From contig OZ014425.1 in the NCBI GenBank assembly GCA_963965975.1, positions 4,539,501 to 4,603,500 on the forward strand: 64,000 nucleotides of DNA. Reading direction: 5' to 3'. This stretch comes from Xestospongia bergquistia. Taxonomy: Eukaryota; Porifera; Demospongiae; Haplosclerida; Petrosiidae. The translations under genes and the position numbers were made by a program. Below, one piece after another: positions 3,480 to 34,300 of this stretch (within the stretch, counting starts at the first letter, position 1; each line of letters begins with the position of its first letter). Under the pieces are notes generated by a model. The model saw nothing but the letters and a program-made list of their open reading frames with translations. It was not told the origin of the DNA and did not search any database.

Positions 3480-3614
3480 TATTTGTTATTAATGTTTATT
3501 AAAATTATACAACTTTGTTAAATTTATTTAATAATGTTATCAAGTTATATTATTACTGAATATGTCTCATTTCAAACAATATATTCCTGAAAAAACAAAT
3601 TGTTGTATCAACTA

Positions 3615-4270
3615 GTGACTGTTAATTACAATAAACTTCCATCTCTGTAAACTAGCTGACACCTTCCCTAGTCTTTCTACAGTACTCCAATATTACTATT
3701 AACAGGTCCTCCATTGAGTAGAAATAACATACAACAATTAAACCACCAGGTTCCTTTGTAGTGTATAGTGTATAATTAACCACATTTATCATTGTAATTA
3801 CATTTAGCAGAGAATTTCATACCATTCAGATCTGAAAACATGTACACCATCACTAATTAGTTCATCTCCAGCAGTACCATTGTATCCTCCTGCATTAAGT
3901 GTGTACTTAGTAAGATCATCTCCAATACTGAATGTAGAGTACTGGGCATAAGCTGTGTTATTTTCAAAGTCTCCAAGATCCACTCATAGAGTCTTTGTTC
4001 CATTTGGTGTAAGACAATGTACTTTACTAAAGCCTAGCCAAAATTCTCCAGTAGATTACCAAAACCTTCCTCATAGTCAATCCAGTTAAGTGTGTACTCA
4101 GTAATACTGTCTCCAATATTGAATGAGGAGTACTGGGTATAAGTCTTGTAGATGGAATGGAAGATGATCTTTCTGACCATATTCTGTTAAATGAATTGTC
4201 TTTCCACTATTACTTAATGTACAGCAGTATTGTTCATAAAGAGAGGGTCCATGTTGTCCCATACTATAAT
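3615..4270 (-). pseudogene. Degenerate fibrinogen-related gene remnant
   Basis: Both halves of a FReD exon (about 3615-4135) and part of an A-type N-terminal exon (about 4140-4270) are recognisable against the intact gene at 4540-5533. The frame is broken: the region after the GGYNGTAGD equivalent is deleted or substituted, and stops occur. A stretch at 4085-4140 repeats part of the TLN...SIG segment, which suggests an internal recombination. It is the left end of the array. Confidence 0.75.
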
Positions 4271-4539
4271 CACATAATCCAGAGTGTAATATATATATAG
4301 TATTATATTAGTATATGACTAACTATTGTATTAATGACTGTTGTATTAATGACTCTGTTTTATTGTAAAATATATTCTTATAATAAGGAGCACATGTTAA
4401 CATAATTAAAATAACTTTATAAACTGGTAATTTAATATTGATAATGAAAACAATAGTTATTTTATTAATTAAAACAAAATAACTCTATTTGTAATAATAA
4501 TAATCACAGTGTTTGTTAATATGGACATGTATCAGTTAG

Positions 4540-5533
4540 TTAATTATGACGTACTTTCATCTCTGTAAACTTCAGTGAGTATGTGCCACCTTTCCAGTTA
4601 GACCACACTACTCCACTGTAAAGACTAACTGGTCCTCCATTGGGATGGTAAGGTGCATTGAGATGAGATTTCATACAACCATTAAACCACCAGGCTCCTT
4701 TCCAGATGTTGGCACATGAAGCAGGAATATTATCATTGTCATTATCTTTTGTAGAGAACTTCATACCATTGGAACGAGTTGCAAAATGGCTGTATTTAGG
4801 ATCAGTGACCAATGCATCTCCAGCAGTACCAGAGTATCCTCCTGCATTAAGTGTATACTTAGTAGTACTGTCTCCAATACTGAATGTAGAGTACTTGGAA
4901 TAAGCTGTGTTATTTTCAAAGTCTCCAAGATCCACTCGTAGAGTATTTGTTCTATTTGATGTAAGACGATATACTTTACTCAAGCCTAGCCAAAATTCTC
5001 CACTAAGATCACCAAATCCTTTCTCATAGTCAGTCCAGTTACGATAAAAATCAACAGATCCATCTTGTCTCCTTTGAAAGACAGTCCATCCCCCACCATC
5101 AGTCTCCATATCACAATAGACCTAGTAGAGGACAGTATAGGATACAATACATATATCATTTATTACCTCAAATGGTGTCTGTCCATCAGGGTTAATAATA
5201 TATATACCACTAGTAGTATAACCTGACTCAAACCATTCCTTACAATCTGTTAGTAGAGCTGATAGATGTAGATATAGTAATAAAATATAGATAATAGATA
5301 CTTATCTTACATGGACAAGAACTAGGTCTTGTAGATGGACAGAGGATAAACCTAGTGAGGTCATTATCTTTAAAATGAAATCTCTTTCCCTTATTACTGG
5401 ATATACAGCAGTATTGTTCATAAAGAGAGGGTCCATGTTGTCTTATGTTACAGTCAGCTATACAATGAGAGGATCCTTCTCCTATACTAGTAATATCAGG
5501 AGTTAGTAACACTAACAACAAGAGAGCAGCCAT
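4540..5533 (-). CDS. Secreted fibrinogen-related (ficolin-like) protein, A-type, about 294 aa
   Basis: Proteins of this family are secreted lectin-like recognition molecules; the ligand here is unknown. Exons are 5311-5533, 5167-5246 and 4540-5121, with GT-AG introns and phases that fit exactly. Exon 1 encodes a signal peptide (MAALLLLVLLTP) and a short Cys module with EQYCC and CP-TRPSSCP. Exon 2 (80 nt) carries CKEWFESG...NPDGQTPFE, the N-terminal edge of the fibrinogen domain. Exon 3 opens VYCDMETDGGGWTVFQRR and holds the calcium-site motif KDNDND and GAWWFNGC near the C-terminus, as in ficolins and tachylectin-5. I chose MAA at 5533; an in-frame ATG at 5554 would add seven residues before the hydrophobic core. 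No collagen-like region is present. Confidence 0.88.
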
Positions 5534-5554
5534 TGTATCAACATCTACAAACAA

Positions 5555-6590
5555 GTGAAGATTTATTGTTTTATTCAGTGAGTAGTTGATAATATCAGAA
5601 ATAATTTTGGAGGTGTTGACAAACTTTTGTTCACATAAGAGTTATAATAATTATATATTACTATAAGGAAACTGTCAAGTTAAATACTTTCCTATTATCA
5701 AAGTGGCTAACAGCTATTGTTTGCTTACGTCAAAAATATCATAAAATATCATGTACATAGACAATATGTTTTAAGATGACACAGATATACATTAAATATT
5801 GTACAAATGTTTAGTTATATATTAATATATAGCATTAAATTGATACTGTTAGAGGTAAACTAATGCATGAAGTTTTCTATCAAAGACAACAGCAGTAATA
5901 ATTGAAGTTCTGGTTCATAAATGCCATATAGTTGAATGGAGCTTGATCAATGCACAGTATCCCAACTCAATGTATATTATCATCTCTACCAATGGAGTAT
6001 CAGATCAATTATAAATACAATAAATCATATATCCTTATATCACTTTATGAAAATAGTCCACTATACCAAATTAAAATGTATATGTTATTAGACAAGACCC
6101 TTGTGTAATTGAATTCCACAACAAATAGAGAGATAGTTGATTGAGATAAAAACTCATATACTGTAATTAATATAAATATATTTTAATTATGATACATGTA
6201 ACAATACCATAATTAATTTTGTTACAGGATAATAGACCTTATGACAATTGTTATTTGTGGTTGTTAGTAATATAATATACATTATACTAGCTATATAAAT
6301 GATGTAAATATATATTATCATGTGACTTGATGATGTATATCATGTGACTTGATGATGTATATCATGTGACTTAATGATATGTATCAAATTATATTTATTA
6401 TAAAGTAGTTTGTTATTTTACAAATAATTATAGTATCAGAGCATTCATAAAAATTCAAATAAATGACTGACTTATTATTAGCATATTAATTGGAATACAC
6501 AACTACATACATTACATACATTACAAAACAAAGCATAACAAATAGTTACAATTATAATTTATAACAAGTGATCATTTTAATACAATTAGA
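5555..6590. other. AT-rich spacer with a short tandem repeat
   Basis: No coding signal was seen. About 6315-6380 holds three copies of a 22-bp unit around TCATGTGACTTGATGATGTA. The rest is AT-rich unique-looking sequence. Confidence 0.6.
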
Positions 6591-6865
6591 TAGATGGAGG
6601 TCAATAATAAACTTTTAATAATTTTGTTTCTTTTAGGATCATTGTATATTAGAGCAACTGAACACACACACATATGCAGATATATTATGATCAAGAGTCA
6701 AGTTAAGTCAACACTGTTCACATAGTGTGATACTATTATTATAATGTATTAATAAACAGTTTATTAACTATTAAAGTTTGTTGAAACTATATCATAATAA
6801 TTGTTAACACAATAAAGATTAACTTAACAATAATGTCAGATAACATTAATAAACAACAGTATCTG
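6590..6865. repeat. 3' flank block shared by subtype-2 FReD genes
   Basis: The stretch from about 6600 (after TAGATAGATGGAGG) to 6865 resembles 18170-18423. Both lie directly downstream of the two FReD exons of the ALNY...TVSGYSGNASDG subtype, so the duplicated unit includes 3' flanking sequence. Confidence 0.65.
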
Positions 6866-7811
6866 TTAGTTGTGATGAATCATCATTTTAGTATATGTGA
6901 GAGAATTAGAGCCTTTCCATGGTACCCAATGAACATCACTATTATAAAGACCATTTAGATTACAACCATTTATATAACATTTACGAAACCACCAACCACT
7001 TTGATAATAAATACCACAGTTCACAGAACCAGCTATGTTATTATCTCTGTCTTTGGTTGTAAACATCATTCCATTTTGTGCAGCCATTCCATCTGAAGCA
7101 TTACCTGAATAACCAGATACTGTTAGATTATAATTTAAAGCACTACTTCCAATACTAAAATATGAATATTTAGCAAATGCCTTCTCTCCTACAAAACTTT
7201 CCAAGTCTACTCGAAGTGTATTTGGAGATAAAATATTGGTCAAATGATGTGTTTTACTGAGTCCTAGCCAAAATTCTCCAGTAAGGTCACCAAAGCCTTC
7301 CTCATAGTCAATCCAGTTACGATAAAAGTCAACAGATCCATCTTGTCTTCTCTGAAAGACAGTCCATCCACCACCATCAGTCTCCATATCACAGTAGACC
7401 TAGTAGAGGACAGTATAGGATACAATACATATATCATTTATTACCTCAAATGGTGTCTGTCCATCAGGGTTAATAATATAGATACCACTAGTAGTATAAC
7501 CTGACTCAAACCATTCCTTACAATCTGTTAGAGTTACCAGAGCTGATATATGTAGATATAGTAATAAAATATAGATAATAGATACTTATCTTACGTGGAC
7601 AAGAACTAGGTCTTGTAGATGGACATAAGATGATCTTTTTTGCACCATCTTCTGTTAAACGAATTGTCTTTCTTTTGTTACTGGATATACAGCAGTATTG
7701 TTCATAAAGAGAGGGTTCATGTTGTCCTATATTACAGTCAGCCATACAGTGAGAGGATCCTTGTCCTATACCAGGAGTTGGTAAGACTAACAAAAATAAA
7801 ATAGCTGCCAT
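6866..7811 (-). CDS. Secreted fibrinogen-related protein, A-type module with subtype-2 FReD, about 276 aa
   Basis: Exons are 7595-7811, 7445-7524 and 6866-7399. The N-terminal module is the A type (MAAILFLLVLPTPGIGQG then the EQYCC region). The FReD exon starts like the other copies but diverges after GEFWLGLSK. It has a 'subtype-2' centre (KAFAKYSYFSIGSSALNYN, SGYSGNASDG), a KDRDNN calcium-site variant, GWWFRKC and the ending TKMMIHHN instead of TEMKVRRN. The ligand-side half therefore differs strongly from its neighbours while the N-terminal half is nearly identical, as expected from recombination or gene conversion between copies. Confidence 0.86.
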
Positions 7812-9246
7812 TTTAACTACCCTCTGTAAGTAATATATATGTTATATTGTAATAGTGATGATAAAGTATGAATATTTACAATTTTTATATACCACATCAT
7901 AGTAATGACATTATGTTAATATAATATGATGTACTATAATATATTATAATGTATAATATTAGTAAGTTATAATTGCTCACTCACTAAATAAACTGGTCAT
8001 ATATCTTTATATTGGTCATATCCATTATCATTACCAAATTCTTACTAGGTCTCAGAAATGAGGAAATACAGTAAAGGACATAGTATAATAGATAAAGACT
8101 TGTACAAATTACATAACTTACTATTACTAAGATATATAGTATCCAATGGATATTACGTTAGATACTAACTATTATTAATATTTATTATTATCTATTGAAT
8201 AGTCATCATTATTTGTGAGTAGCTAATGATGAATACTTAATATCTACTCAACAGATAGATACTCTTGAATATTAATAGTATTCAATTATTAATATTAGCT
8301 ATAATGATTGCTACTAATAACTAATAATCTATAGAGAACACACTTAATGTAGGAAGGTACTCTTGTATTATTGTTACTAGTAATCTATAGAGTACCCACT
8401 TAATGTAGGAGGGTACTCTTGTAGTATTGCTACTAATAATCTATAGAGTACCCACTTAATGTAGGAAGGTACTCTTGTATTATTGTTACTAATAATCTAT
8501 AGAGTACCCACTTAATCTACAGAGTACCCACTTATTGTAGGAAGGTACTCTTGTATTATTGTTACTAGTAATCTATAGAGTACCCACTTAATGTAGGAAG
8601 GTACTCTGGTATTATTGTTACTAGTAATCTATAGAGTACCCACTTAATGTAGGAAGGTACTCTGGTATTATTGTTACTAGTAATCTGTAGAGTACCCACT
8701 TAATGTAGGAAGGTACTCTGGTATTGCTAGAGATGGATTAATTACTGATATAACTTGGGACTAGTGGACATAATTATAATGGAATGAAATTAAAACAATT
8801 ATTGTATTAATATAATTATTAATTATTGATGTAGTTTATATAATTATACTATAAAAAATTAATTTTATCAAAATTAATCAATTAGTAACTTACTTTGGTA
8901 AATTACTATTGTGTGATTAACAAAGGTAGATTATTAGATTGTTTGTTGCTTGGCAAACAATTTAGCAGTGAGTACTTCAATGAATTTTGAGTTCAATAGT
9001 AATCCACTCATGTAAGCTACAAATGATTTGTTGAAGTACATATTAATTGTTACAGTGATATAATGAATTATTAATTAATGTTACAGTGATATAATGAATT
9101 ATTAATTACTTGTTACAGTGATATAATGAATTATTAAATTACAGAATATTTGTAGCACAATAAAATATAATAAAGACATTTTTCAATAATTGTTAAATAT
9201 TGGTTACTCCCAAACATGTTTTAATTAATATTTGTTACTATATTAC
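7812..9246. repeat. Duplicated spacer block upstream of A-type genes, with a 56-bp minisatellite
   Basis: No gene was seen in the spacer. It is homologous to 14440-15493, in part to 17390-18070, and to 25195-26170, always upstream of an A-type FReD gene, and so forms part of the amplified unit. The minisatellite at 8324-8722 is expanded only in this copy. Confidence 0.75.
8324..8722. repeat. 56-bp tandem repeat (minisatellite), about 7 copies
   Basis: Units begin TAATCTATAGAGTACCCACT at about 8324, 8381, 8437, 8493, 8513 (a 20-bp partial unit), 8569, 8625 and 8681. They are nearly identical, and each contains GGAAGGTACTCT. The homologous spacers near 14960-15000 and 25665-25710 carry one unit or part of one. 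Confidence 0.92.
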
Positions 9247-9521
9247 CTATATATCTAATTTAAGATTATCTCTAGTACATAAATTTATTTCTATACAAGT
9301 ACAAGTGAGATCTTTTTCCTCCTTATCCTCAGCCTTACAACTATACAGATACTCTATAAGAAACAGTTAGTAATAACAAATAGGACAACAGTGATATTAT
9401 AAAGAAACAATACTATTACTTTACTGTATATACCTTGTGGATCTGTTGGACAGTTTGCTGTCACACCACATATGTAAACAACAATAGCTAGAAAAAGAAC
9501 AATGTTGTATTTCACCTTCAT
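9247..9521 (-). CDS. Stand-alone B-type N-terminal module, small secreted Cys-rich peptide (64 aa) or truncated gene
   Basis: Two exons (9434-9521 and 9247-9353) join in frame. Exon 1 is the B-type signal peptide, MKVKYNIVLFLAIVVYICG, then NCPTDPQ. Exon 2 begins EYLYSCKAEDKEEKDLTCTC like the full B-type genes. After CIE the sequence switches to unrelated DNA and stops about 15 codons later. There is no fibrinogen exon before the next copy. Either this is a truncated pseudogene or it makes a mature peptide of about 45 residues with four or five Cys. The same breakpoint recurs at 15494-15768, so the truncated form was itself duplicated. An upstream ATG at 9569 would extend the N-terminus without a better signal peptide. 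Confidence 0.5.
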
Positions 9522-9699
9522 TTTATTAAGACACTTTATAAGAATAATGTGTTGTGTTTTCAGACACAAAATCTCTCTTTAAATAAGCTTGGATTGAAGT
9601 GTCAGATCATCATTGCACCCGCCTCTTACCTGTACAATACAATACAGTACAGTACAGATAATCTCCCCCTCCTTCCCCTCTTCCTCCCTCTCTGTGTGT

Positions 9700-9946: not shown

Positions 9947-10303
9947 TTAATTACGACGAACTTTCATTTCTGTGAACTTGAGAGAGTAAGTGTTACCTTT
10001 CCAGTCATACCACAGTATTCCACTCCAATCACTAACTGGTCCTCCATTGGGATGATAAGGTGCATTGAGATGAGATTGCATACAGGAATTAAACCACCAA
10101 GCTCCTCTCCATAACCTAGCACAACCACCATTATTGTCTTTAGTAGAAAACTTACTACCATTGTGGTTATGTGCAACAGGCCAATTTGTATCATTAATTA
10201 GACCATCTCCAGCATTACCAGAATATCCTCCTACATTAAGTGTGTACTCAGTAGTATTATCTCCAATACTGAATGTAGAATGTACAATATTATTGTTTAT
10301 CAT
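9947..10303 (-). pseudogene. FReD gene truncated to the C-terminal half of the last exon
   Basis: The frame from [21 protein letters not shown] to TEMKVRRN is intact and matches subtype 1. The first half of the domain and all upstream exons are missing. At about 10280-10300 the sequence switches to the spacer that holds TACTACCAGCAGGTCTACC, which also occurs near 13110, 26945 and 30910. It has no start codon, signal peptide or first disulfide, so it is a deletion pseudogene. Confidence 0.82.
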
Positions 10304-10687: not shown

Positions 10688-11993
10688 TTAATTACGACGA
10701 ACTTTCATCTCTGTAAACTTGAGAGAGTAACTATCACCTTTCCAGAAATACCAATTTATTCCTTTCCATCTGCTAACTGATCCTCCATGATAGTAAGGTC
10801 CATTGAGGTGAGATTGAAAACATTCAGTAAACCACCAAGCTCCTTTCCAGTGTGTGGCACATGAACCACTATCCTTATCATTGTCATTGTCTTTAGTAGA
10901 GAATTTCGTACCATTGTGTTTATGGTCAACAGGAAAAGTTGCATCATTAATTAGACCATCTCCAGCAGTACCATTGTATCCTCCTACATTAAGTGTGTAC
11001 TCAGTAGTATTATCTCCAATACTGAATGTAGAGTACTGGGCATAAGCTGTGTTACTTTCAAAGTCTCCAAGATCCACTCGTAGAGTGTGGTTTGTTCCAT
11101 TTGATGTAAGACGATGTACTTTACTTAAACCTAACCAAAATTCTCCACTAAGGTTACCAAACCCTTCCTCATAGTCAGTCCAGTTACGATAAAAATCAAC
11201 AGATCCGTCTTGTCTCCTCTGAAAGACAGTCCATCCACCACCATCAGTCTCCATATCACAATAGACCTAGTAGAGGACATTAAAATATACAATACATATA
11301 TTAATCAAAGTTTATTTAAAAAATTCTAAAAAATTCATGAAATGTAGAGATGATGGTACAAAGATCCCAGAATAGGAGTGGTAGTATAAAAATCTCAACA
11401 AAGTAGCTACATTATAGAATCTTACTTCAATATTTCTTTTAAATTAATAATTAGCTATAATATTGTAATAAATATCTCATGCAAATAAGTCTATTTCTAC
11501 TGTGGTCTTGTTTAATAGAAGGTATCATCATCCCTACATTCCATGACTTTTAAAGAAATTTTAATATAATTGTAGAGACATGTTTGTTAAAGACAATGCT
11601 ATACCTTAAAAGATGACATGTTGTCAGGTTTAATAGAATAGATACCATTCTTATTCTGTCCCTTCCTCAAAGCATCAAGACAGTCAAGATAAGGTACTTC
11701 AGGAATAGTAGGTGGATCATCAACAAAACAAGTACAGTTGTACATTCCTGTCTCCTTTAGTTCTATACAAGTACAAGAGAGATCTTTTTCCTTCTTATCC
11801 CTAGCCTTACAACTATACAGATACTCTATAAGAAACAGTTAGTAATAACAAATAGGACAACAGTGATGTTATAAAGAAACAATACTATTACTTTACTGTA
11901 TATACCTTGTGGATCTGTTGGACAGTTTGCTGTCACACCACATATGTAAACAGCAATAGCTAGAAAAAGAAAAATGTTGTATTTCACCTTCAT
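10688..11993 (-). CDS. Secreted fibrinogen-related protein, B-type, about 295 aa
   Basis: Exons are 11906-11993 (signal peptide and NCPTDPQ), 11605-11825 and 10688-11266; lengths of 88, 221 and 579 nt keep the frame. Exon 2 replaces both the A-type Cys module and the 80-nt exon. It encodes EYLYSCKARDKKEKDLSCTC, a second Cys pair (YNCTCF), then CLDALRKGQNKNGIYSIKP, which supplies the N-terminal edge of the domain. The FReD exon is subtype 1 with KDNDNDKDSGSCATHW and GAWWFTEC. Its variable segment (DATFPVDHKHNG) differs from the other copies. All key Cys and the calcium motif are present. Confidence 0.87.
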
Positions 11994-12319: not shown

Positions 12320-13060
12320 ATAATGAGTGACTGTTAATTATAATAACATTCATCTCTATAAACTTGAGGGAGTAGTTGTCACCTTTCTAACCATACAAAA
12401 TTATTCCACTAATAGTCCTTCATGATAATTGAGTGCATTGAGGTAGGATTTAAAAACACCAACTCCTTTCCATCATTTAGCACATAAATCACTACTATCA
12501 TTGTCATTATCTTTAATAGATGATTCCACACTATGGCATCAGCAATTTCTAACTAATTTTAAATATAGAAATTAATTGAGCTATATGAACGTGATAGAAT
12601 TCTGAAAAAAGTTAACAGAACGTTTCGGCCAAAGGCCTTCATCAGCTGTTTAAGAAACATTGGCAAAAAAACAGTCACTTATATAGCAATGCATGATGTT
12701 TACAGTTATTATGTAGGCCAGAAGTTGTCCTAGGAAGATAGAAAAGGACGCTAAGTTGTACCATGTTGGAGATCACGAGTACAGAGTTGTACCACGAAGC
12801 ACGAAAAGGACGCGAACTAGTTAATTAAATTATAGGGGGAGTGGCTGTAAGTTATTACTAAAAGTCAACAGATCCATCTTGTCTCCTTTGAAAGACAGTC
12901 CATCCACTACCATCAGTCTCTATATAGGAATTGTAGAGGACAGTTAGGGTACAATCTCTATTGACTATTACTGGATATACAGCAGTATTGTTTATAAAGA
13001 GAGGGTCTGTGTTGTCCTATGTTACAGTCAGCCATACAAAGAAAAGGATCCCTGTAGGTA
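12320..13060 (-). pseudogene. Degenerate FReD pseudogene split by an insertion
   Basis: The FReD exon end (about 12320-12550), its start (about 12863-12925) and an A-type exon 1 piece (about 12965-13060) are recognisable, with stops and frame breaks. Its sister copy at 20116-20790 is continuous. In this copy about 240 bp of the middle is replaced by about 300 bp of foreign sequence (12556-12862). Confidence 0.78.
12556..12862. mobile_element. Foreign insertion in FReD pseudogene, possible retroelement fragment
   Basis: This stretch is absent from the sister pseudogene at 20116-20790 and from all other FReD copies. It contains ACGTTTCGGCCAAAGGCC followed by TTCATCAGC, a sequence style I associate from memory with terminal parts of retroelements in invertebrate genomes. 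It also has a repeated GAGTTGTACCA / AAAAGGACGC pair. No coding frame and no clear terminal repeat or target duplication was found, so the class is not established. Confidence 0.45.
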
Positions 13061-14439: not shown

Positions 14440-15493
14440 TTTAACTACCCTCTGTAAGTAATATATATGCTATGTTGTAATAGTGATGATAAAGTATGAA
14501 TATTTAGGATTTTTGTATACTACATCATAGTAATGACATTATGTTAATATAATATGATGTACTATAATGTAATATAATGTATAATATTAGTATGTTCTAG
14601 TTGCTCACTCACTAAATAAACTGGTCATATATCTTTATATTGGTCATATCTATTATCATTACCAAATTCTTACTAGGTCTCAGAAATGAGGAAATACAGT
14701 AAAGGAAATAATATAATAGATAAAGACTTGTACAAATTACATAACTTACTACTACTAATGATATATAGTATCCAATGGATATTACAGTAGATACTAACTA
14801 TTATTAATATTTATTATTATCTATTGAATAGTCATTATTATTTGTGAGTAGCTAATGATGAATACTCATTAGATACTCAATAGATAGTAATGATACTCTT
14901 GAATATTAATAATATTCAATTGTTAATATTAGCTATAATGATTGCTACTAATAACTAATAATCTATAGAGTACACACTTAATGTAGGAAGGCACTCTGGT
15001 ATTGCTAGAGATGGATTGATTACTAATATAACTTTGGGGCTAGTAGACATAATTATAATGGAATGAAATTAAAACAATTATTGTATTAATATAATTGTTA
15101 ATTAGTGATATAGTTTATATAATTATATTATAAAAATTCATTTTATCAAAATTAATCAATTTGTAACTTACTTTGGTAAATTACTATGTGTGATTAACAA
15201 AGGTAGATTATTAGATTATTTGTTGCTTGGCAACCAATTTAGCAGTGAGTACTTCAATGAATTTTGAGTTCAATAGTAATCCACTCATGTAAGCTACAAA
15301 TGATTTGTTGAAGTACATATTAATTGTTACAGTGATATAATGAATTATTAAATTACTTGTTACAGTGATATAATGAATTATTAAATTACAGAATATTTGT
15401 AGCACAATAAAATATAATAAAGACATTTTTCAATAATTGTTAAATATTGGTTACTCCCAAACATGTTTTAAATAATATTTTTTACTATATTAC
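14440..15493. repeat. Second copy of the A-type upstream spacer block
   Basis: Aligns by eye with 7812-9246 over nearly its whole length, lacking only the minisatellite expansion. No gene was seen. A short repeat with CAGTGATATAATGAATTATTA (two copies near 15335-15385, three near 9055-9140) differs in copy number. Confidence 0.75.
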
Positions 15494-15768
15494 CTATATA
15501 TCTAATTTAAGATTATCTCTAGTACATAAATTTATTTCTATACAAGTACAAGTGAGATCTTTTTCCTCCTTATCCTCAGCCTTACAACTATGCAGATACT
15601 CTATAAGAAACAGTTAGTAATAACAAATAGGACAACAGTGATATTATAAAGAAACAATCCTATTACTTTACTGTATATACCTTGTGGATCTGTTGGACAG
15701 TTTGCAGTCACATCACATATGGAAACAGCAATAGCTAGAAAAAGAACAATGTTGTATTTCACCTTCAT
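15494..15768 (-). CDS. Stand-alone B-type N-terminal module, second copy (64 aa) or truncated gene
   Basis: Exons 15681-15768 and 15494-15600 join in frame. The product is almost the same as that of 9247-9521, with the same switch after TCTCIE to the INLCTRDNLKLDI tail. Exon 1 differs at SICDV against YICGV. That both copies keep an open frame and splice sites is compatible with a functional small secreted peptide but also with recent duplication of a dead end. Confidence 0.48.
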
Positions 15769-18423: not shown

Positions 18424-19766
18424 TTAGTTGAGACGGATCATCATTTTAGTAAATGTAAGATGATCAGGGTAATTCCATGGTACCCAATGAATTACATTAA
18501 AATAATGTTTCATTGAGTCATTATTATAAAGACCATTTAGATTACAACCACCTACATAACATTTATGAAACCATCAAGCACTTATATAACTAGTGCCACA
18601 GTTGTCATAAACAGCTGTTATTATCTCTGTCTTTGGTTGTAAACATCATTCCATTATGTGCAGCCATCCCATCTGAAGCATTACCTGAATAACCAGAAAC
18701 TGTTAGAATATAATTTAAAGCACTACTTCCAATACTAAAATATGAGTATTTAGCAAATGCCTTCTCTCCTTTAAAGCTTTCCAAGTCTACTCGAAGTGTA
18801 TTTGGAGATGTAATATTAGTCAGACGATATATTTTACTGAGTCCTAGCCAAAATTCTCCACTAAGGTCACCAAACCCTTCCTCATAGTCAACCCAGTTTC
18901 GATAAAAGTCAACAGATCCATCTTGTCTCCTTTGAAAGACAGTCCATCCACCACCATCAGTCTCCATATCACAATAGACCTAGTAGAGGACATTAAAATA
19001 TACAATACATATGTTAATCAAAGTATATTAAAAAAAATTCTAAAAAATTCATGAAATGTAGAGATGATGGTACAAAGATCTCAGAATAGGAGTGGCACTA
19101 TAAAAATCTCTACAATGTAGCTACATTATAGAATCTTATTTCAATATTTCTCTTAAATTTATAATTAGCTATAATATTGTAATAAATTTCTTATTGTTTT
19201 CTTGCCAATAAAACTGTATGGTCTTTGTTTCAATTATGGCTATTATTTTTATATTGCTATTTCTACTTTGGTCTTCTTTGATAGAAGATATCATCATTCC
19301 TACATTCCATGATTTTTAAAGAAATTTTAATATAATTGTAGAGATAAATATCATGTTTGTTAAAGACAATGTTATACCTTAAAAGATGACATGTTGTCAG
19401 GTTTGATGGAATAGACACCATTCTTATTCTGTCCCTTTATAAAAGCATCAAGACAATCAAGATATTGTCCATCAGGAGTAGCAGGTGGATAATTAACAAA
19501 ACAAGTACAGTTGTACATTCCTGTCTCCTTTAGTTCTATACAAGTACAAGAGAGATCTTTTTCCTCCTTATCCTCAGCCTTACAGCCATACAGATACTCT
19601 ATAAGAAATAGTTAGTAATAACTAATAGGACAACAGTGATGTTATAAAGAAACAATCCTATTACTTTATTGTATATACCTTGTGGATCTGTTGGACAGTT
19701 TGCTGTCACGCCACATATGTAAACAGCAATAGCTAGAAAAAGAACAATGTTGTATTTCACATTCAT
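18424..19766 (-). pseudogene. B-type FReD pseudogene with subtype-2 domain
   Basis: Exons 1 and 2 (19679-19766 and 19378-19598) are intact B-type. The FReD exon begins at 18979 and matches the subtype-2 gene at 6866-7399, down to the ending MMIR. At about 18618, after KDRDNN, a frameshift leads to an immediate stop (SCL*). Just beyond, the Trp expected in AWWF is a TGA. The remaining sequence (KCY, CNLNGLYN, TKMM) is still recognisable. It is the only B-type gene here with a subtype-2 domain. Confidence 0.88.
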
Positions 19767-20115
19767 TTTATTAAGACACTTTATAAGAATAATGTGCTGT
19801 GTTTTTGGACACTAAATCTCTCTTTAAATAAGCTTGGATTGAAGAGCTAGATCATCATTACACCTGCTTAGTCATGCTCTTACATGTTCTGTACTGATAT
19901 GATAGTAGACAAACCATATCTAGATACTATACACATATAATATCTATTCTTATATGTAGTAGATAGCATTATGTTATTGATTATAAACAAATGCTGATTC
20001 AGTGACATGTCAGCTCTTTGTAGTTGTTTATGGTTTTTTCTAAAGGAACTACCTCAACATTATTAGAGTTGACTTATCATTTTAAGGTCATATCAACTAA
20101 ATAATGAGTGACTGT

Positions 20116-20790
20116 TAATTATGATAACATTTGTCTCTGTAAACTTGAGGGAGTAGTTGTCACCTTTCTAATCATACCAAATTATTCCACTAATAGTCCT
20201 TCATGATAATTGAGTGCATCGAGGTAGGATTTAAAAACACCAACTCCTTTCCATCATTTAGCACATAAATCACTACTATCATTGTCATTATCTTTAATAG
20301 ATAATTTCAAACTATGACATCAGCAATTTCTAACTAGTCAATCTCTAGTAGTACCTGAATATTCTCCTACATTAAGTATGTACATAGTAATACTGTCTCC
20401 AATACTGAATTTAGAATACTAGGTATAAGCTGTGTTATTTTCACAGTCTCCAAGATCCACTTATAGAGTATTTATTCCACTTGATGTAAGACGATGTACT
20501 TTACTTAAACCTAATCAAAATTCTCCAGTAAGGTTACCAAACCCTTCCTCATAGTCAACCCAGTTATGATAAAAGTCAACAGATCCATTTTGTCTTCTCT
20601 GAAAGACAGTTTATCCACTACCATCAGTCTCTATATAGACTTGTAGAGGACAGTTAGGGTACAATCTCTATTGACTATTACTGGATATACAGCAGTATTG
20701 TTTATAAAGAGAGGGTCTGTGTTGTCCTATGTTACAGTCAGCCATACAATGAGAGGATCCCTGTAGGTAGACAATCCCTATAGGTAGACA
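20116..20790 (-). pseudogene. Degenerate FReD pseudogene
   Basis: A nearly full-length FReD exon with many substitutions and stops (for example GACAGTTTATCC where others have GACAGTCCATCC), followed by an A-type exon 1 fragment (20670-20765). It is the uninterrupted sister of 12320-13060 and relates to 23340-23825 and 29620-30340. These four form an older, decayed lineage within the array. Confidence 0.8.
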
Positions 20791-22478: not shown

Positions 22479-22998
22479 TTAATTACGACGAACTTTCATC
22501 TCTGTAAACTTGAGAGAGTAGCTATCACCTTTCCAGTCATACCAAATTATTCCATTCCATGTACTAACTGATCCTCCATGATAGTAAGGTCCATTGAGGT
22601 GAGATTGAAAACAAGAATTAAACCACCAGGCTCCTTTCCAGGATATGGCACATGAACCACCACTATTATCATTATCATTGTCTTTAGTAGATAAGTTTGT
22701 ACCATTGTGGTTATATCCTAAATTACTATCAGTAATAAGACCATCTCCAGCAGTACCAGAGTATCCTCCTACATTAAGTGTGTAATTGGTAGTATCATCT
22801 CCAATACTGAATGTAGAGTACTGGGCATAAGCTGTGTTATTTTCAAAGTCTCCAAGATCCACTCGTAGAGTATTTGTTCCATCTGGTGTAAGATGATGTA
22901 TTTTACTCAAACCTAGCCAAAATTCTCCATTAAGGTCACCAAACCCTTCCTCATAGTCAGTCCAGTTGAAAAAGAACAATGTTGTATTTCACACTCAT
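22479..22998 (-). pseudogene. Chimeric deletion pseudogene: B-type signal exon fused into the FReD exon
   Basis: From 22479 to about 22968 the FReD exon is intact from NWTDYEEGFGD to VRRN. To its right, instead of the exon start (METDGGGW...DFYR), the sequence becomes B-type exon 1 read from its ATG at 22998 (MSVKYNIVLF), with the B-type promoter region beyond. The rest of exon 1, exon 2 and the first 30 or so codons of the FReD exon are missing. The joint is out of frame: the ATG frame hits TGA a few codons after it. The joint lies at an A-rich GAAAAAG-like stretch, which suggests microhomology. Confidence 0.85.
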
Positions 22999-23339: not shown

Positions 23340-23825
23340 GCGATTGTTAATTATGATAACATTCATCTCTGTAAATTTGAGGGAGTAGTTGTCATTTTTC
23401 CAATCATACCAAATTATTCCACTAATAGGTCCTCCATGATAATTGAGTTCATTGAGGTAGAATTTATAAACACCAATTCTTTTCCATCATTTAGCACATA
23501 AACAACTACTATCATTGTCATTATCTTTAATAGATAATTTCACACTATGACATCAGCAATTTCTAACTAGTCAATCTCTAGTAGTACCTGAATATCCTCA
23601 TGCATTAAGTGTGTACTTAGTAATTCTGTCTCCAATACTGAATGTAGAGTACTGGGCAAAAGCTGTGTTATTTTCAAAGTCTCCAAGGTCCACTCATAGA
23701 GTATTTATTCCATTTGATGTAAGATGATGTACTTTACTCAGACCTAACCAAGATTCTCCATTAAGGTTCCCAAACCCTTCCTCATAGTCAACTCAGTTGA
23801 GATAAAAGACAACAGATCTAACAGG
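23340..23825 (-). pseudogene. Degenerate FReD exon
   Basis: A full-length but decayed copy of the FReD exon with several stops, including TGA within the GGYSG region and TGAGTTGA for the NW position. It stops at about 23820, where the sequence switches to the spacer containing AACAGGTCTACCAGTTAG. The upstream exons are missing. Confidence 0.78.
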
Positions 23826-25170: not shown

Positions 25171-25194
25171 TTTAACTACCACTGTACGTAACAT

Positions 25195-26170
25195 ATATGC
25201 TATGTTGTAACAGTGATGATAAAGTATGAATATTTAGAATTTTTATATACCACGTCATAGTAATGACATTATGTTAATATAATATGATGTACTATAATGT
25301 ATTATAATGTATAATATTAGTGTGTTCTAGTTGCTCACTCACTAGACAATATATCTTTATACTAGTCATATCCATTATCATTACCAAATTCTTACTAGAT
25401 CTCAGGAAGAGGAAATACAGTAAATGAAATAATATAATAGATAAAGACTTGTACAAATTACATAACTTACTATTACTAATGATATATAGTATCCAATGGA
25501 TATTACAGTAGATACCATCTATTGTTAATATTTATTATTATCTATTGAATAGTCATCATTATTTGTGAGTAGCTAATGATGAATACTTAATATCTACTCA
25601 ACAGATAGTAATGATACTCTTGAATATTAATAGTATTCAATTATTAATATTAGTTATAATGATTGATACTAATTAACTATTGAGTATACATTTAATGTAG
25701 GAAGGTACTCTGGTATTGTTTGATATGAACTAATTACTGATATAACTTGGGGCTAGTGGACATAATTATAATGGAATGAAAATAAAACAATTATTGTATT
25801 AATATAATTATTAATTATTGATGTAGTTTATATAATTATACTATAAAAATTCATTTTATCAAAATTAATCAATTCGTAACTTACTTTGGTAAATCACTAT
25901 GTGTGATTAACAAAAGTAGATCATTAGATTATCTGTTGCTTAGCAACTAATTAAACAGTGAGTATTTCATGTGAATTTTGAGTTAATAGTAATCCACTCA
26001 TGTAAACTACAAATAATTTATTGAAATATTTATTAATATTTACATTGATTAATGAATTATTAATTTACAGAAAAATTGTAGTATAATAAAATGTAATAAA
26101 GATATAACATATATCTTTCTATAATTGTTAAATATTGGTTATTCCCAAACATGTTTTTAATTAATATTTG
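25195..26170. repeat. Third copy of the A-type upstream spacer block
   Basis: Aligns by eye with 7812-9240 and 14440-15490. No gene was seen. Near 26060-26170 it reaches the region that in those blocks leads into the stand-alone B-type modules, but the B module itself is absent here. Confidence 0.72.
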
Positions 26171-26214
26171 TTACTACATTTCCTATATATCTAATTTAAA
26201 ATTATCACTATTTG

Positions 26215-26400
26215 ACCATTGTCTTTTGAATGAATTGACTTTCTTCTGTTACTAGATATACAGCAGTATTGTTCATAAAGAGAGGGTCATGTTGTCCCAT
26301 ACTACAATCAGTCATACAGTGAGAGGATCCCTGTCCTAAGCTAATAATATCAGGAGTTAGTAACACTAACAGCAAAAGAACAGCCATTGTAACTAGGATG
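26215..26400 (-). pseudogene. Isolated A-type exon 1 remnant
   Basis: The MAVLLLLVLLTPDII signal peptide, the EQYCC part and a piece towards the lost donor can be read. One base is missing in the CATGTTGTCC segment, which breaks the frame, and no donor follows. It is homologous to 30185-30340 and is followed, like it, by the 26400-26900 block. Confidence 0.75.
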
Positions 26401-27125: not shown

Positions 27126-27693
27126 CAGACATGGGGCCAAGTACTTTTGAAAGTACTTAAGTAAAGTACAAGTACTTTCAAAAAATCTTAAGTACAAGTA
27201 CAAGTACAAGCTCCAATAATTAAAATGTACTTAAGTATAAGTACAAGTACTTTAGAAAGTACTTAAGTACAAGTACAAGTACAAATGTCTCAACTGGTAG
27301 GTAATGAATTTGGGAGTGGTTATTAGTTTTTGGCAGTCAAACAGAATTACAATAATGGTACATTATCATTATTACATCTTATAAACATTAGCTGTTCGAA
27401 TCTGTCATCGCTTAGTCTACACCTTTCTGGTGTGAAAACCTTTCCCGCAATGCTAAATAGCCTCTCTACAGCTGAAGATTTGATCAATAACATTAGAAGG
27501 ACTTAAAAGACTTAAAGGTACTTCAAAGTACTTATAAGTATTTAAGTACTTGCAAGTACATACCTCAGTACTTGAGTACAAGTACAAGTACTACGCAAAA
27601 ATTAAAAAAGGACTTAAGTACAAGTACAAGTACTTTCATAGATGTACTTATAGTACTTAAGTACAAGTACCAATGTACTTGGCCCCATGCCTG
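27126..27693. mobile_element. hAT-type DNA transposon, non-autonomous, 568 bp, with TIRs and 8-bp TSD
   Basis: The ends read CAGACATGGGGCCAAGTAC (left) and the inverse of CAGGCATGGGGCCAAGTAC (right). The flanking 8-bp duplication AGTAGTAC is at 27118-27125 and 27694-27701. Eight-base duplications and CA-G starts fit the hAT superfamily. Subterminal regions are full of AAGTACTT / AAGTACAAGTAC motifs. The core keeps a relic of a transposase C-terminus on the minus strand (see next entry). Homologous FReD flanks elsewhere, for example near 22265-22280, have a single uninterrupted AGTAGTAC, that is, the empty site. Confidence 0.92.
27350..27500 (-). pseudogene. hAT transposase C-terminal (dimerisation domain) relic
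   Basis: The minus strand encodes SSAVERLFSIAGKVFTPERC followed by RLSDDRFEQLMFI, the conserved hAT dimerisation motif (ERLFS-AG). The rest of the transposase is absent, so the element could move only with a transposase supplied elsewhere. Confidence 0.85.
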
Positions 27694-27905: not shown

Positions 27906-29265
27906 TTAATTACGACGAACTTTCATCTCTGTGAACTTGAGAGAGTATGTGCCACCTTTCCAGTCATACCACAGTATTCCAGTCCAATCAATAACAGCTC
28001 TACTATTAGGATGATAAAGTGCATTGAGATGAGATTGCATACAGAGATTAAACCACCAAGCTCCTTTGTAGACAATGGCACAGGAATCAGCAGTATTATC
28101 ATTGTCATTGTCTTTAGTAGAAAACTTCATACCATTGAGGTAATGTTCACCAACTCCATTTAATGCATCTCCAGCAGTACCAGAATATCCTCCTACATTA
28201 AGTGTATACTCAGTAGTACTGTCTCCAATATTGAATGTAGAGTACTGGGCATAAGCTGTGTTACCATCAAAATCTCCAAGATCCACTCGTAGACTGTTTG
28301 TTCCATTTGATGTAAGACGATGTACTTTACTCAAGCCTAACCAAACTTCTCCAGTAAGGTTACCAAAACCTTCCTCATAGTCAGTCCAGTTACGATAAAA
28401 GTCAACAGATCCATCTTGTCTTCTCTGAAAGACAGTCCATCCACCACCATTAGTCTCCATATCACAGTAGACCTAGTAGAGGACATGAAAATATACAATA
28501 CATATATTAATCAAAGTTTGTTAAAAAATTATAAAAATTAATGAAATGTAGAGATGATGATACAAAGATCTCAAACAAGATCAGAATAGGAATGGCAATC
28601 TAAAAATCTTTACAAAGTAGCTACATTATAGAATCTTATTTCAATATTTCTTTTAAATTTATAATTAGCTATAATATTGTAATAAATTTCTTATTGTTTT
28701 TTATGCCAATCAAACTATGTGGCCTTTGTTTCAGTTATGGTTACTATTTTGGCACTGCTATTTCTACTGTGGCTTTGTTTGATTATAGGTATCACCATCC
28801 CTATTCCATGATTTTTAAAGAAATTTTAATATAATTGTAGAGATAAGTATCATATTTGTTAAAGACAATGTTATACCTTAAAAGATGACATGTTGTCAGG
28901 TTTGATAGAATAGACACCATTCTTATTCTGTCCTTTCCTCAAAGCATCAAGACAATCAAGATAATGTACTTCAGGAGTAGCAGGTGGATCATCAACAAAA
29001 CAAGTACAGTTGTACATTCCTGTCTCCTTTAGTTCTATACAAGTACAGGAGAGATCTTTTTCCTTCTTATCCCTAGGTTTACAACTATAAAGATACTCTA
29101 TAAGAAATAGTTAGTAATAACATATAGGACAACAGTGATGTTATAAAGAAACAATAGTATTACTTCATTGTATATACCTTGTGGATCTGTTGGACAGTTT
29201 ACTGTCACATCAGATATGTAAACAGCAATAGCTAGAAAAAGAACAATGTTGTATTTCACATTCAT
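27906..29265 (-). CDS. Secreted fibrinogen-related protein, B-type, about 291 aa
   Basis: Exons are 29178-29265, 28877-29097 and 27906-28472, with the same lengths (88 and 221 nt) as the gene at 10688-11993. The signal peptide is MNVKYNIVLFLAIAVYISDV. The FReD is subtype 1 but starts METNGGGW instead of METDGGGW. Its variable loop is ALNGVGEHYLNGMKF, its calcium site KDNDNDNTADSCA, and GAWWFNLC follows. The end of the pocket region reads YHPNSRAVIDWTG, diverging from NGGPVSDW elsewhere. The frame is intact. The hAT insertion lies just beyond its 3' end, within the 3' flank block. Confidence 0.86.
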
Positions 29266-29619
29266 TTTATTAAGACACTTTATAAGAATAATGTGTTGTG
29301 TTTTTGGACACCAAATCTCTCTTTAAATAAGCTTGGATTGAAGTGTCAGATCATCATTACACCTGCTTAGTCATGCTCTCACCTGTTCAGTACTGATATG
29401 ATAGTAGACAAACCATATCTAGATACTACAGGTATATAATATCTATTCTTAGATGTAGTAGATAGCATTATGTTATCGATTATAAACAAATGCTGATTAA
29501 TTGACATATCAGCTCTCTGTAGTTGTTTATGGTTTTTTCTAAAGGAACTACCTCAGTGTTATTGGAGCTGACTTATCATTATAAGGTCATATCAACTAAA
29601 TAGTGAGCGATTGTTAATT

Positions 29620-30340
29620 ATGATAACATTCATCTCTGTAAATTTGAGGGAGTAGTTGTCATTTTTCCAATCATACCAAATTATTCCACTAATAGTCCTC
29701 CATGATAATTGAGTGCATTGAGGTAGTATTTAAAAACACCAACTCCTTTCCATCATTTAGCACATAAACCACTACTATCATTGTCATTATCTTTAGTAGA
29801 TAATTTCACATTATCGAGATGACATCAGCAATTTCTAACCAGTCAATCTCCAGCAGTACCAGAATATCCTCCTACATTAAGTGTGTACTTAGTAATACTG
29901 TCTCCAATACTGAATGTAGAATACTGAGCATAAGCTGTGTTATTTTCAAAGTCTCCAAGATCCACTCATAGACTGTTTGTTCCATTTGATGGAAAGTGAT
30001 GTACTTTACTCAAACCTAACCAAAATTCTCCACTAAGGTTACCAAGACCTTCCTCATACTTACTCAGTCCAGTTATGATAAAAGTCAACAGATCCATCTT
30101 GTCTCCTTTGAAAGACAGTCCAAACATCGCCATCAGTCTCCAGACTGATAGACTTGTAGAGGACAGTACAGGATACAATCTCTATTGACTATTACTGGAT
30201 ATACAGCAGTATTGTTCATAAAGAAAGGGTCCATGTTGTCCTATGTTACAGTTAGCCATACAGTGAGAGGATCCCTGTCCTAAACTAATAATATCAGGAG
30301 TTAATAACACTAACAACAAGAGAGCAGCCATTGTAACTAG
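29620..30340 (-). pseudogene. Degenerate FReD pseudogene plus A-type exon 1 remnant
   Basis: The FReD exon (about 29620-30150) has several frameshifts and stops: an extra TACT in the region of the DYEE motif near 30055, and ACATCGCC for the ACCACC of the GGGW codons. It is followed directly by an A-type exon 1 (30185-30340) without exon 2. Same older lineage as 12320, 20116 and 23340. Confidence 0.8.
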
Positions 30341-30344
30341 CATA

Positions 30345-31291: not shown

Positions 31292-32282
31292 TTAATTACG
31301 ACGAACTTTCATCTCTGTAAACTTGAGAGAGTATGTACCACCTTTCCAGTCATACCACAGTACTCCACTAGAACTACTAACTGGTCCTCCATTGGGATGG
31401 TAAGGCGCATTGAGATGAGATTGCATACAACCATTAAACCACCAGGCTCCTTTCCAGATGTAGGCACATGAAGCAATGATATTATCATTGTCATTATCTT
31501 TTGTAGAGAACTTCATACCATTGGAACGAGTTGCAACATGGCTGCGACTTGCATCAGTGACCAATGCATCTCCAGCAGTACCAGAGTATCCTCCTGCATT
31601 AAGTGTGTACTTAGTAGTACTGTCTCCAATACTGAATGTAGAGTACTTGGCATAAGCTGTGTTGTTTTCAAAGTCTCCAAGATCCACTCGTAAAGTATTT
31701 GTTCCATCTGGTGTAAGACGATGTACTTTACTCAAACCTAGCCAAAATTCTGCAGTAAGGTTACCAAAGCCTTCTTCATAGTCAACCCAGTTGAGATAAA
31801 AGTCAACAGATCCATCTTGTCTTCTCTGAAAGACACTCCATCCACCACCATCAGTTTCCATATCACAGTAGACCTAGTAGAGGACAGTATAGGATACAAT
31901 ACATATATCATTTATTACCTCAAATGGTGTCTGTCCATCAGGGTTAATAATATAGATACCACTAGTAGTACTACCTGACTCAAACCATCCCTTACAATCT
32001 TTAAACACTATTAAAAATTAAATCAATACATGTACAAGTACATTGTTGTTTACCTGGACAAGTGCTGGGTAATATAGATGAACAAGGAATAAACCTAGTC
32101 AAGCCTGAATTGTCCATAATATGAAATATCTTTCCATTGTTACTAGATGTACAGCAGTATTGTTCATAGAGTGATAAGGTTTTTTGCTCCAGTAGACTGT
32201 TATAATCATCTAAACAATCAGAAGATCCTTCACTTGTACTAGTAGTTAACAATACCACAATTAACATCAAGATAGCCACCAT
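31292..32282 (-). CDS. Secreted fibrinogen-related protein, divergent A-type, about 296 aa
   Basis: Exons are 32054-32282, 31919-31998 and 31292-31873. The N-terminal module is a diverged A type: MVAILMLIVVLLTTSTSEG, then SSDCLDDYNSLLEQKTLSLY and EQYCC. The Cys spacing is kept but about half of the residues have changed. Exon 2 reads CKGWFESGSTTSG. In contrast, the FReD exon is close to those at 4540 and 21088 (TDASRSHVATRSNG loop, KDNDNDNIIASCA). An ordinary domain behind an old N-terminal module again indicates domain-level exchange. Upstream in-frame ATG at 32333. Confidence 0.86.
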
Positions 32283-32339
32283 TTTTATGTTGTTCTTTTC
32301 ACTGAGCAATGATGTAAGGATTGATTCCTTCATTCTTTA

Positions 32340-33568
32340 CATATTAGGCACCATATCAAATTCAGTTATCTTAATGTGTTATAGTAAACATATATGTACT
32401 TCAAAGTGTATAAATAATACATTTCTTGGCTTCTCGTAGAATGCAGGGACTAGTATACTGTCTACTGTCTGGAACATATGAAGTTATTAAAGTCAATTGT
32501 GATACTAAAAATAGTCTTTGGGAGTGCTGCTAACTTCGATACTAAAAATAGAACATTTGCATAATACAAAGTTAAAAAGGATACATAATAATATTATATA
32601 ACAAATGACATTTTAGAGTACAACATAAACATTTAAGCAAAATAAAAATAGCGAGAATAATATCATTCAATATAATATTCACAGGTAAAAGTTATAATAC
32701 AGTTTTATATTCTGTAAACTTGTGAGAGTTATAATCACATTCAATTTATATTATTGAAGTATTAGAACTTTTTATTATATTATGTTGACAAGAATTAGTT
32801 TTTGTAAATGGACAAAAGGACCTTTTGGATCATATTCTGTTAAACAAAATAAATTGTTTTAAATTAACTATATAAATTGATATTTATTCTAACAGACTAA
32901 AAAACAATAGAGATGGTTTAAATGATAATTCAATCCTCTTACTATGACAATCAACAAAGATGTATTATTTACAAGTTCCATTGAATTGTTGATATTATTA
33001 GTTGATTTAGGAAAAAGGTAACCATGTTGCAACAATATTAAATTTATTAATCAAAATGTTTATTAGAGACAGTCCATCCACCACTATCAGTCTCAGTAGA
33101 CTTAGTAGACAGCTTTAAAATATAACTCTACTTGAAAAGGAGTTGACTGATTTTGTTAACATTGTTGACATCTTATGATATAATATGTGAGAACTTAGCC
33201 AATAGGTTTAGTGTGATACTGATGAAGACAATAGACTTACTGTAGTAGTTAAGCTTCATACTGAATTCAATAGTGTTGATATTGTTTAAAATTGTAGATA
33301 GAATATTGAAATTGAAATTTTTTATTATTATTATAAATCAATTAACTTAATGTCATGATGTAGTAATACTCTCTACTAAATAATATTATAATATTTAATA
33401 TTAAAACAAATACTATATATTGCTGCATAATAATTTAGTTAAAGGAAATGTATTAAATCAATTTACTATTATTGATTATATTAATAAGTAATGTCACACG
33501 TATTGTGATGATTTGTTAAGAAAACATTTTGTTAATATAATGTGAGTTATTAATAATAATGTATTAAG
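32340..33568. other. AT-rich region with scraps of FReD sequence
   Basis: No intact gene. Fragments recall FReD genes on the minus strand: TCTGTAAACTTGTGAGAGTT (32712-32731), an A-type exon 1 end near 32790-32845, and GACAGTCCATCCACCAC near 33068. These are probably very old remnants. Confidence 0.5.
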
Positions 33569-33787
33569 TTATGGACAAGAACTAGGTCTTGTAGATGGAC
33601 AGAGGATAAACCTAGTGAGATCATTATCTTTAAAATGAAATCTTTTCCCCCTATTACTAGATATACAGCAGTATTGTTCATAAAGAGAGGGTCCATGTTG
33701 TCCCATATTACAGTCAGTCATACAGTGAGAGGATCCCTGTCCTATACCAGGAGTTGGTAACACTAACAAAAAGAAAAGAGGTGCCAT
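33569..33787 (-). CDS. Stand-alone A-type exon 1: 72-aa small secreted Cys-rich peptide or orphan exon
   Basis: A fully open frame from MAPLFFLLVLPTPGIGQG through EQYCC to CPSTRPSSCP, ending in TAA exactly where other copies have their splice donor (TGTCCA then T-GTAAG). No exon 2 or FReD exon follows to the left for several kb. The mature peptide would have six or seven Cys. It may be an orphan exon left by a deletion, but the signal peptide and Cys pattern are undamaged, unlike the other isolated copies near 26215 and 37400. Confidence 0.5.
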   Translation of the reverse strand: MAPLFFLLVLPTPGIGQGSSHCMTDCNMGQHGPSLYEQYCCISSNRGKRFHFKDNDLTRFILCPSTRPSSCP

Positions 33788-33789
33788 TT

Positions 33790-34300
33790 TAACAAGCCTC
33801 TGTAAGTAATATATATGTTATGTTGTAATAGATGATGATAAAGTATGAATATTTAGGATTGTTGTATACCACATCATAGTAATAATATTATATTAATATG
33901 CTGTGCTGTACTATAATGTATTATATTCTATTATTATATAATTAGTACGTTGTAATTAAATTAATTACTCATTTACTAGATACTATTGTTTGTTAATTAA
34001 TCAAGTAATTCTTTAAAAATAATGTAATACTATTATCTAATTAACAATTTAGTGATCTTATCAATGATGAGTCAAGTAGTCATGTATATATCAGATTATG
34101 TTAAAACTAATTGGTTGTTTTAATTAACCAATTAAAGTTTTATTCTAATTGCTAAAACTATCCTTTTACAGAATAAGAGGTGATTGATCTATTGGTACCT
34201 AACATTTGTCAAACATTTCTTACTGCTTGTTTCAGTAGATTAACACTAGTCAAACTAGTCATACTTGTTTATACTAGTTGAACTGGTCATACTTGTTTAT
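33790..34300. repeat. Left copy of segmental duplication flank
   Basis: Homologous to about 37500-37890, including a palindromic AATTGGTTGTTTTAATTAACCAATT element (here near 34109). About 34235-34320 has degenerate ACTAGTTAAACTGGTCATAC repeats, apparently the remains of the mucin-like coding repeat seen at 41090-41600. Confidence 0.7.

Follow-up and report, generated by a model that had tools for sequence, protein, structure and literature searches.

Fibrinogen-like lectin genes of the sponge Xestospongia bergquistia are mosaics of 5′ and ligand-binding halves

A window of 64,000 nucleotides from the sponge Xestospongia bergquistia (positions 4,539,501 to 4,603,500 of contig OZ014425.1, here called C15, in assembly GCA_963965975.1, a genome of 146 Mb in 21 contigs) holds ten three-exon genes for fibrinogen-like lectins, which lie at 3.7-33.8 kb and are without exception encoded on the minus strand. 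Each gene joins one of two N-terminal modules to a last exon that bears a fibrinogen-related domain (FReD). The genes are mosaics: trees of their two ends conflict, the C15 copies carry a recombination signal in exon 3, and variation concentrates at residues that align with the ligand pocket of a known FReD lectin. We consider it probable, at roughly 0.7, that non-allelic homologous exchange in this tandem cluster reassorts 5′ and ligand-binding halves, mainly via a conserved block of exon 3.

Results

Both N-terminal modules occur with both FReD subtypes

Rebuilding the ten gene models confirmed the proposal of a first-pass annotation that two N-terminal modules, A and B, are each found with both FReD subtypes. 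All four combinations are present in the window: A+1 in genes 4540, 13466, 16183, 21088, 24204 and 31292, A+2 in 6866, B+1 in 10688 and 27906, and B+2 in 18424. Every pairing proposed earlier holds, with A21088 to be added to the list. The A genes have a first exon of 217, 223 or 229 nt and a second of 80 nt, the B genes a first exon of 88 nt and a second of 221 nt; judged from these lengths, both types have a phase-1 intron 1 and a phase-0 intron 2. Exon 3 starts in phase 0, with VYCDMETDGGG in nine of the ten genes; this start had been taken as invariant, and B27906 departs from it with VYCDMETNGGG. The FReD itself begins inside exon 2, of which it occupies the last 26-27 residues (the PF00147 match starts at residue 76 of A and residue 77 of B). 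As the A and B exon 2 ends are recognisably similar (36% over 44 residues, E about 1e-4), the earlier view that the modules are unrelated survives for the part upstream of the FReD start, where sequence comparison gave no convincing similarity. No family was found in the A and B N parts by a Pfam scan at E<=1, and when the B N part (residues 1-103) was used by itself as a database query, 0 of 7 candidates scored at E<=0.01. The oligomerisation or attachment role suggested for these parts, which have no Pfam match, is not supported; from a signal-peptide-like start, read by eye, the window lectins are probably secreted.

The identity of the last exon is clear-cut. Against a cut-off of 22 bits, PF00147 (Fibrinogen_C) scored 251.7 bits in A4540 and 267.7 bits in B10688, covering profile positions 4/5-219 of 221. 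The position of FIBCD1 Asp393 is aspartate in 13 of 14 copies and that of Asp395 in 12 of 13, while that of Cys414, in the Cys-Cys loop beside the acetyl pocket, is cysteine in 13 of 14. By these calcium aspartates and this loop, the window genes read as FReD lectins of the FIBCD1, ficolin and tachylectin kind, for which glycan binding is predicted at most. The Pfam scan of the A and B proteins returned PF00147 only, and thus no immunoglobulin superfamily (IgSF) domain of the kind expected in a FREP; the collagen-like N region of a ficolin was likewise not found, the N parts showing no Pfam match and, by eye, no Gly-X-Y run. The nearest named relatives that match almost the full protein come from another sponge, Amphimedon queenslandica (such as P0007, with 58% across its entire length), and other database proteins are closer than these over part of the protein (P0005, 82%).

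The modules extend well beyond the window. With 150 of 239 candidates scored, Fibrinogen_C has at least 151 matches genome-wide; the A-type exon 1 has 43 (40 of 85 candidates scored) and the B-type exon 2 has 40 (40 of 68 candidates scored), the latter two on C15 and C8 with a few on C2 or C4. On C8, A- and B-type 5′ exons carry an exon 3 of C8 type. A third N type, C, is found on C15 at 4.19-4.22 Mb; it is paired with a subtype-1-like exon 3, with a divergent FReD exon 3 specific to it or, in three copies, with a different last exon. The latter, 222-239 residues long in these three genes (loci L009-L012), falls short of a full FReD (VYCDMKGT.CD.KGGWT...): it departs after its first part, the one that was scanned matching PF00147 over residues 1-43 below the cut-off, and a PDB search gave no match at E<=1. 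A pattern for the start of exon 3 found 60 starts in the loci examined, and none in the 2.39 Mb C8 cluster (parts L001-L003 and L008) or in L017 on C14.

Trees of the 5′ and 3′ parts conflict

We compared the two ends of the genes in separate trees. The exon 3 tree holds 52 of the 60 starts, eight truncated or non-FReD ones being left out; approximately unbiased (AU) tests used 44 A/B rows for exon 3 and 43 for the exon 2 end, since the exon 2 end of one row was not recognised. Matches to A exon 1 or B exon 2 guided the choice of the 19 C8 loci L029-L047, which therefore do not sample C8 at random. Exon 3 unites 26 C8 genes in a single clade (100/100) that contains A and B genes intermixed; among the C15/C4 genes, all three types A, B and C are interspersed. 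In the 78-nt exon 2 end, A and B split at 100/100 and a C8 clade is rejected. Identities follow the same pattern: exon 2 ends of the same type agree at 0.78-0.85 as compared to 0.47-0.55 for those of the same locus, and in exon 3 the order is reversed. Holding B together as one clade in exon 3 is rejected overall (AU p=2e-6, 9 label changes), within C8 (p=3e-5, 6 label changes) and within C15+C4 (p=2e-80, 3 label changes), so that the conflict between the gene halves is far beyond chance. It appears both between chromosomes and within the window, and the congruence of all exon trees, which the first-pass annotation had named as the outcome that would speak for whole-gene duplication alone, is rejected. 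Mosaic genes with conflicting segment trees, as in recombination-diversified immune families such as FREP or Sp185/333, are therefore what the cluster contains.

A similar mixing is seen in A. queenslandica, which holds homologous A modules (best matches E 1e-25 to 1e-29) and C modules (1e-17 to 1e-23). The FReD tree for this species comprises 33 of its proteins among the 120 listed as relatives; P0057 and P0061 of these were typed A by default, and 0 of 33 were assigned to type B. Their FReD halves fall into one species clade in 31 cases (99/94), with A and C mixed, and the remaining two join the lineage of the C module's own FReD in the X. bergquistia genome (98/89). Holding the 7 C rows of the A. 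queenslandica clade together against its 23 A rows is rejected (p=0.02; 30 of the 33 rows, without P0058, P0067 and P0061). A 26-residue N segment divides A from C at 100/99 regardless of species (5 of 33 proteins were skipped, their ends not fitting).

The switches appear to lie mainly inside exon 3

The first-pass annotation had placed the exchange at the boundary between intron 2 and exon 3. One junction does lie in intron 2. In the window B genes this intron is 338-404 nt long and starts like the B introns of C8, which measure 42-84 nt; its last ~35 nt are 86-89% alike to a ~45-nt A intron of C15 in two of the genes (the alignment shows this end in the third as well), and its middle is flanked by ~50-nt inverted repeats. 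The chimeric intron occupies 11267..11604 (minus strand) in B10688, and the same build is found at 18980-19377 and 28473-28876. Because all three window B genes, which are 92-95% alike in 5′ flank and 5′ half, share this one junction, it looks like a single fusion at the origin of these genes that was later copied, rather than repeated swapping.

The other switches that we could place, at about nt 150 and nt 300, are inside exon 3. Subtypes 1 and 2 have the first ~150 nt of exon 3 in common (0.83-0.97 identity in 30-nt windows) and agree at only 0.35-0.69 thereafter, with 0.49 at nt 150-180. The two subtype-2 genes, one A and one B, are 86% identical over an 822-column alignment from the exon 3 start and 90% in the 3′ flank, and they group with C7 genes in the exon 3 tree (100/99). 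Five A/B pairs from three C8 sister groups do not stand out in similarity from the average A/B pair up to nt 300, and lie mostly well above it afterwards (0.69-1.00 vs a mean of 0.70 at nt 360, four of five pairs being above; 0.81-0.95 vs 0.72 at nt 420). By its sequence, A21088 is a mosaic of a 13466-like 5′ half (98% to A13466, 83% to A31292) and a 31292-like exon 3 end (84% and 95%, respectively). Since homologous exchange inside exon 3 keeps the frame anyway, the phase-0 boundary is not essential as the frame keeper for which it had been taken.

Two further analyses bear on the position of the exchange. The pairwise homoplasy index (PHI) gave p=0.001, the floor of 1000 shuffles, in 8 window genes as well as in 14 C15+C4 genes. 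Among 12 A genes, distances in exon 3 correlate with those of the 5′ half at 0.55 for nt 0-100; beyond nt 100 the correlation is weak or absent, the highest value being 0.32 at nt 250-350 (p=0.018). Most of the exchange apparently takes place within the first, conserved half of exon 3. With A4540 as an example, the proposed exchange tract corresponds to the conserved first 300 nt of exon 3 (4822..5121, minus strand), and the variable part predicted to bind ligand to 4540..4821 (minus strand).

Variation downstream of the block falls on the predicted ligand pocket

In the C15 set the first ~100 codons of exon 3 are near-uniform, silent sites included (pS, the divergence at silent sites, is 0.135 vs 0.35 in the variable parts). 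The ratio pN/pS of amino acid-changing to silent divergence, counted in 13 of 14 C15+C4 rows with A21088 left out, comes to 0.34 for the conserved block, 0.81 for the variable part and 0.07 for the calcium loop. Downstream of the block, variation falls on loops around the conserved DNDND loop. We mapped the pocket by alignment to the FIBCD1 sequence, with ligand and calcium residues as given in PMC3908420 and PMC10825690. The eight residues equivalent to the FIBCD1 pocket have a mean entropy of 1.49, whereas the mean over all sites is 0.51 (p=0.0002) and that within the same half 0.80 (p=0.008); both calcium-binding aspartates are kept amid the variable half. An AlphaFold model of A. queenslandica P0007 (28-row alignment) was discarded at a mean predicted local distance difference test score (pLDDT) of 45.5, so the pocket mapping is throughout one of aligned sequences. 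The changes in the variable part may be tolerated or diversifying, and are not proven to reflect positive selection.

Layout of the cluster and its surroundings

Eight of the ten genes have intact open reading frames. A4540 spans 4537..5533 (exons 5533-5311, 5246-5167 and 5121-4540), A6866 6863..7811 (7811-7595, 7524-7445, 7399-6866), B10688 10685..11993 (11993-11906, 11825-11605, 11266-10688), A13466 13463..14439 (14439-14223, 14158-14079, 14029-13466), A16183 16180..17164 (17164-16942, 16871-16792, 16746-16183), A24204 24201..25170 (25170-24954, 24883-24804, 24758-24204), B27906 27903..29265 (29265-29178, 29097-28877, 28472-27906) and A31292 31289..32282 (32282-32054, 31998-31919, 31873-31292). 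The broken genes are B18424 (18421..19766; exons 19766-19679 and 19598-19378, exon 3 from 18979), whose frame ends after exon 3 codon 124, and A21088 (21085..22069), which has a stop at codon 5 and an altered end. About a dozen remnants of FReD genes accompany them, likewise on the minus strand. An orphan B exon 1 with a partial exon 2, running by eye into a stop, lies at 9284..9521, with a similar orphan at 15531-15768; at 22479..22988 the start of a B-type exon 1 is fused straight to the middle of an exon 3. An orphan A exon 1 without, by eye, a GTAAG donor is found at 33571..33774, and other A exon 1 fragments at 26217-26387 and 30177-30331. Further exon 3 remnants are at 3712-4143, 9947-10279, 12334-12520, 12859-12925, 20115-20636, 23347-23818 and 29614-30142.

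Short sequences related to exon 3 recur in inverted orientation relative to the genes: a 56-bp tandem array at 8320-8725 (region 8320-8749) and single sites at 14969-15027 and 25676-25741 are 77-81% identical to exon 3 nt 256/263-321. The 3′ flank of B27906 contains a 568-bp insertion (27126-27693) with ends CAGACATGGGGCC...GGCCCCATGCCTG, AAGTAC-rich repeats inside and the 8-bp direct repeat AGTAGTAC on both sides, and looks like a non-autonomous hAT element. Beyond the cluster, two tandem copies of a Ser/Thr-rich receptor-like gene occupy 34305-42983, with a 7tm_2 (secretin-family) match at 38549-38881 (25.1 bits, cut-off 20.6). At L048 on C2 (3.00 Mb), where FReD exon 3 was seen as remnants only, A-type exon 1 copies adjoin a gene with the unusual N part VSTISLYYVIISL...RSWSLYNGNISQSLYTNKS, as they do at 33.6-43 kb of the window, so that C2 appears to carry a duplicate of the window edge. 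The remainder of the window holds an AAA_11 helicase-type domain (46868-47269), a TPR/ANAPC3-type protein (48933-50639), a forkhead domain (53303-54007) and a PH domain just under the cut-off (57428-57727).

Discussion

We propose that each gene consists of a type-specific 5′ half (flank, exons 1 and 2 and the first ~26 FReD residues), a conserved block and a variable ligand-binding half. The block, corresponding to the first ~100 codons of exon 3, is common to any two copies whatever their N module, so that misaligned exchange within it, by unequal crossing over or gene conversion, could place any downstream half behind any 5′ half without a shift of frame. Passage of exchange through the block would also keep it alike within each cluster, and at least one exchange, the one that gave the window B genes, took place in intron 2. 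Several results weigh against this proposal. Two of the ten genes are broken, PHI is not significant in 19 C8 genes (p=0.098), and for the 26-residue N segment a grouping by species stays acceptable at the 0.05 level (p=0.065). The distance test becomes uninformative once the divergent 31292/C4 pair is removed, as the 5′ half of the A genes is then uncorrelated with itself (p=0.23). In the predicted pocket, the positions of FIBCD1 Arg412 and His396, two of the eight, are nearly invariant, and two calcium positions contributing main-chain oxygens are variable; positive selection, sought by pN/pS, was not shown, the ratio always being below 1 (0.81 in the variable part).

Gene conversion in an array could homogenise the block as a neutral by-product, with weakly constrained loops drifting and nothing gained from new pairings. 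The low pN/pS everywhere and the many broken copies and remnants fit such a scenario; the concentration of variation at pocket-aligned residues, which is uneven even over the variable half (p=0.008), and the strongly kept calcium loop (pN/pS 0.07) do not, and we regard it as doubtful while still deserving attention. Repeated unequal exchange at the intron-exon 3 boundary, enabled by phase 0, would account for the chimeric intron 2 of the window B genes and for the way in which the C8/C15 signal flips between exon 2 and exon 3. Against it stand the single junction shared by all three B genes as well as the switch between subtypes 1 and 2 and the A/B sharing on C8, both inside exon 3, which together make the boundary an unlikely main site.

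The remaining explanations do without exchange between genes or without genuine mosaics. Tandem copies this similar could have been collapsed or mis-joined during assembly to give false mosaics, which is very unlikely given similar mixing at C15, at C8 and in the separately sequenced proteins of A. queenslandica. Combination at the RNA level, by splicing alternative first exons to shared last exons, is suggested by the orphan 5′ exons at 9284-9521, 15531-15768, 26217-26387 and 33571-33774; as all ten genes own exons 1-3 with splice sites, and as by eye the A orphan at 33571 has no donor and the B orphans hit a stop, we give it hardly any weight. Whole-gene duplication alone explains the tandem arrays of whole-gene copies and the likeness of the window B genes upstream of exon 3, yet with congruent trees rejected by the AU tests and a PHI of p=0.001 its probability is close to negligible.

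Homologous exchange through the exon 3 block, which we favour, can be extended to a broader and more tentative idea, to which we assign rather less than an even chance: sponges may keep a germline combinatorial lectin system, in which N modules A, B, C and perhaps more are paired with at least five last-exon kinds (subtypes 1 and 2, the C8 type, the C module's own type and the mostly non-FReD last exon on C15), the conserved block serving as a standing recombination tract. Such a system would be older than the split from A. queenslandica, and its combinations and copy numbers would differ between individuals. A modular mosaic FReD repertoire of this size, with two of its N modules also mixed in Amphimedon, would put the strategy near the base of the animals, with new half-combinations arising in an animal without antibodies; the arrangement of a conserved block as exchange tract with pocket residues downstream could be a rule to look for in other lectin families. 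The products may serve in microbe recognition, and selection may favour their diversification. In another sponge, Dysidea avara, several fibrinogen-domain genes, other than those studied here, change expression after exposure to microbial molecules, according to PMC6208332.

FReD lectins are already known, as are gene conversion and recombination in invertebrate immune gene families, described in PMC7588048, PMC12074976 and PMC1988830. Modular mixing of FReDs across N types, chromosomes and two sponge species is not described in the titles and abstracts of the open-licence PMC papers that our literature searches listed, subscription papers being outside these searches. A close case is A. queenslandica, whose FReD proteins, like those of X. 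bergquistia, join A and C modules to one FReD type, and whose FReD halves are mostly species-specific. Among PDB matches, FIBCD1, the ficolins and tachylectin 5A share the FReD fold by sequence, and most of our copies retain the calcium aspartates and the Cys pair, whereas several pocket residues differ among them. The N parts of FIBCD1 and the ficolins are of other kinds than those found here. The FREPs of Biomphalaria glabrata resemble the sponge genes as an invertebrate multigene FReD family, partly diversified by gene conversion and thought to act in recognition, with somatic diversification also reported (PMC7588048 and PMC12074976); according to these sources they differ in having IgSF domains before the FReD, which our scan of the A and B proteins did not find. 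Finally, the Sp185/333 (SpTransformer) genes of the purple sea urchin are likewise mosaic immune genes, arranged in clusters with close linkage, and recombination and gene conversion have been proposed for them (PMC1988830). Their proteins are unrelated to those of the sponge, where mixing couples different N parts to a FReD lectin domain.

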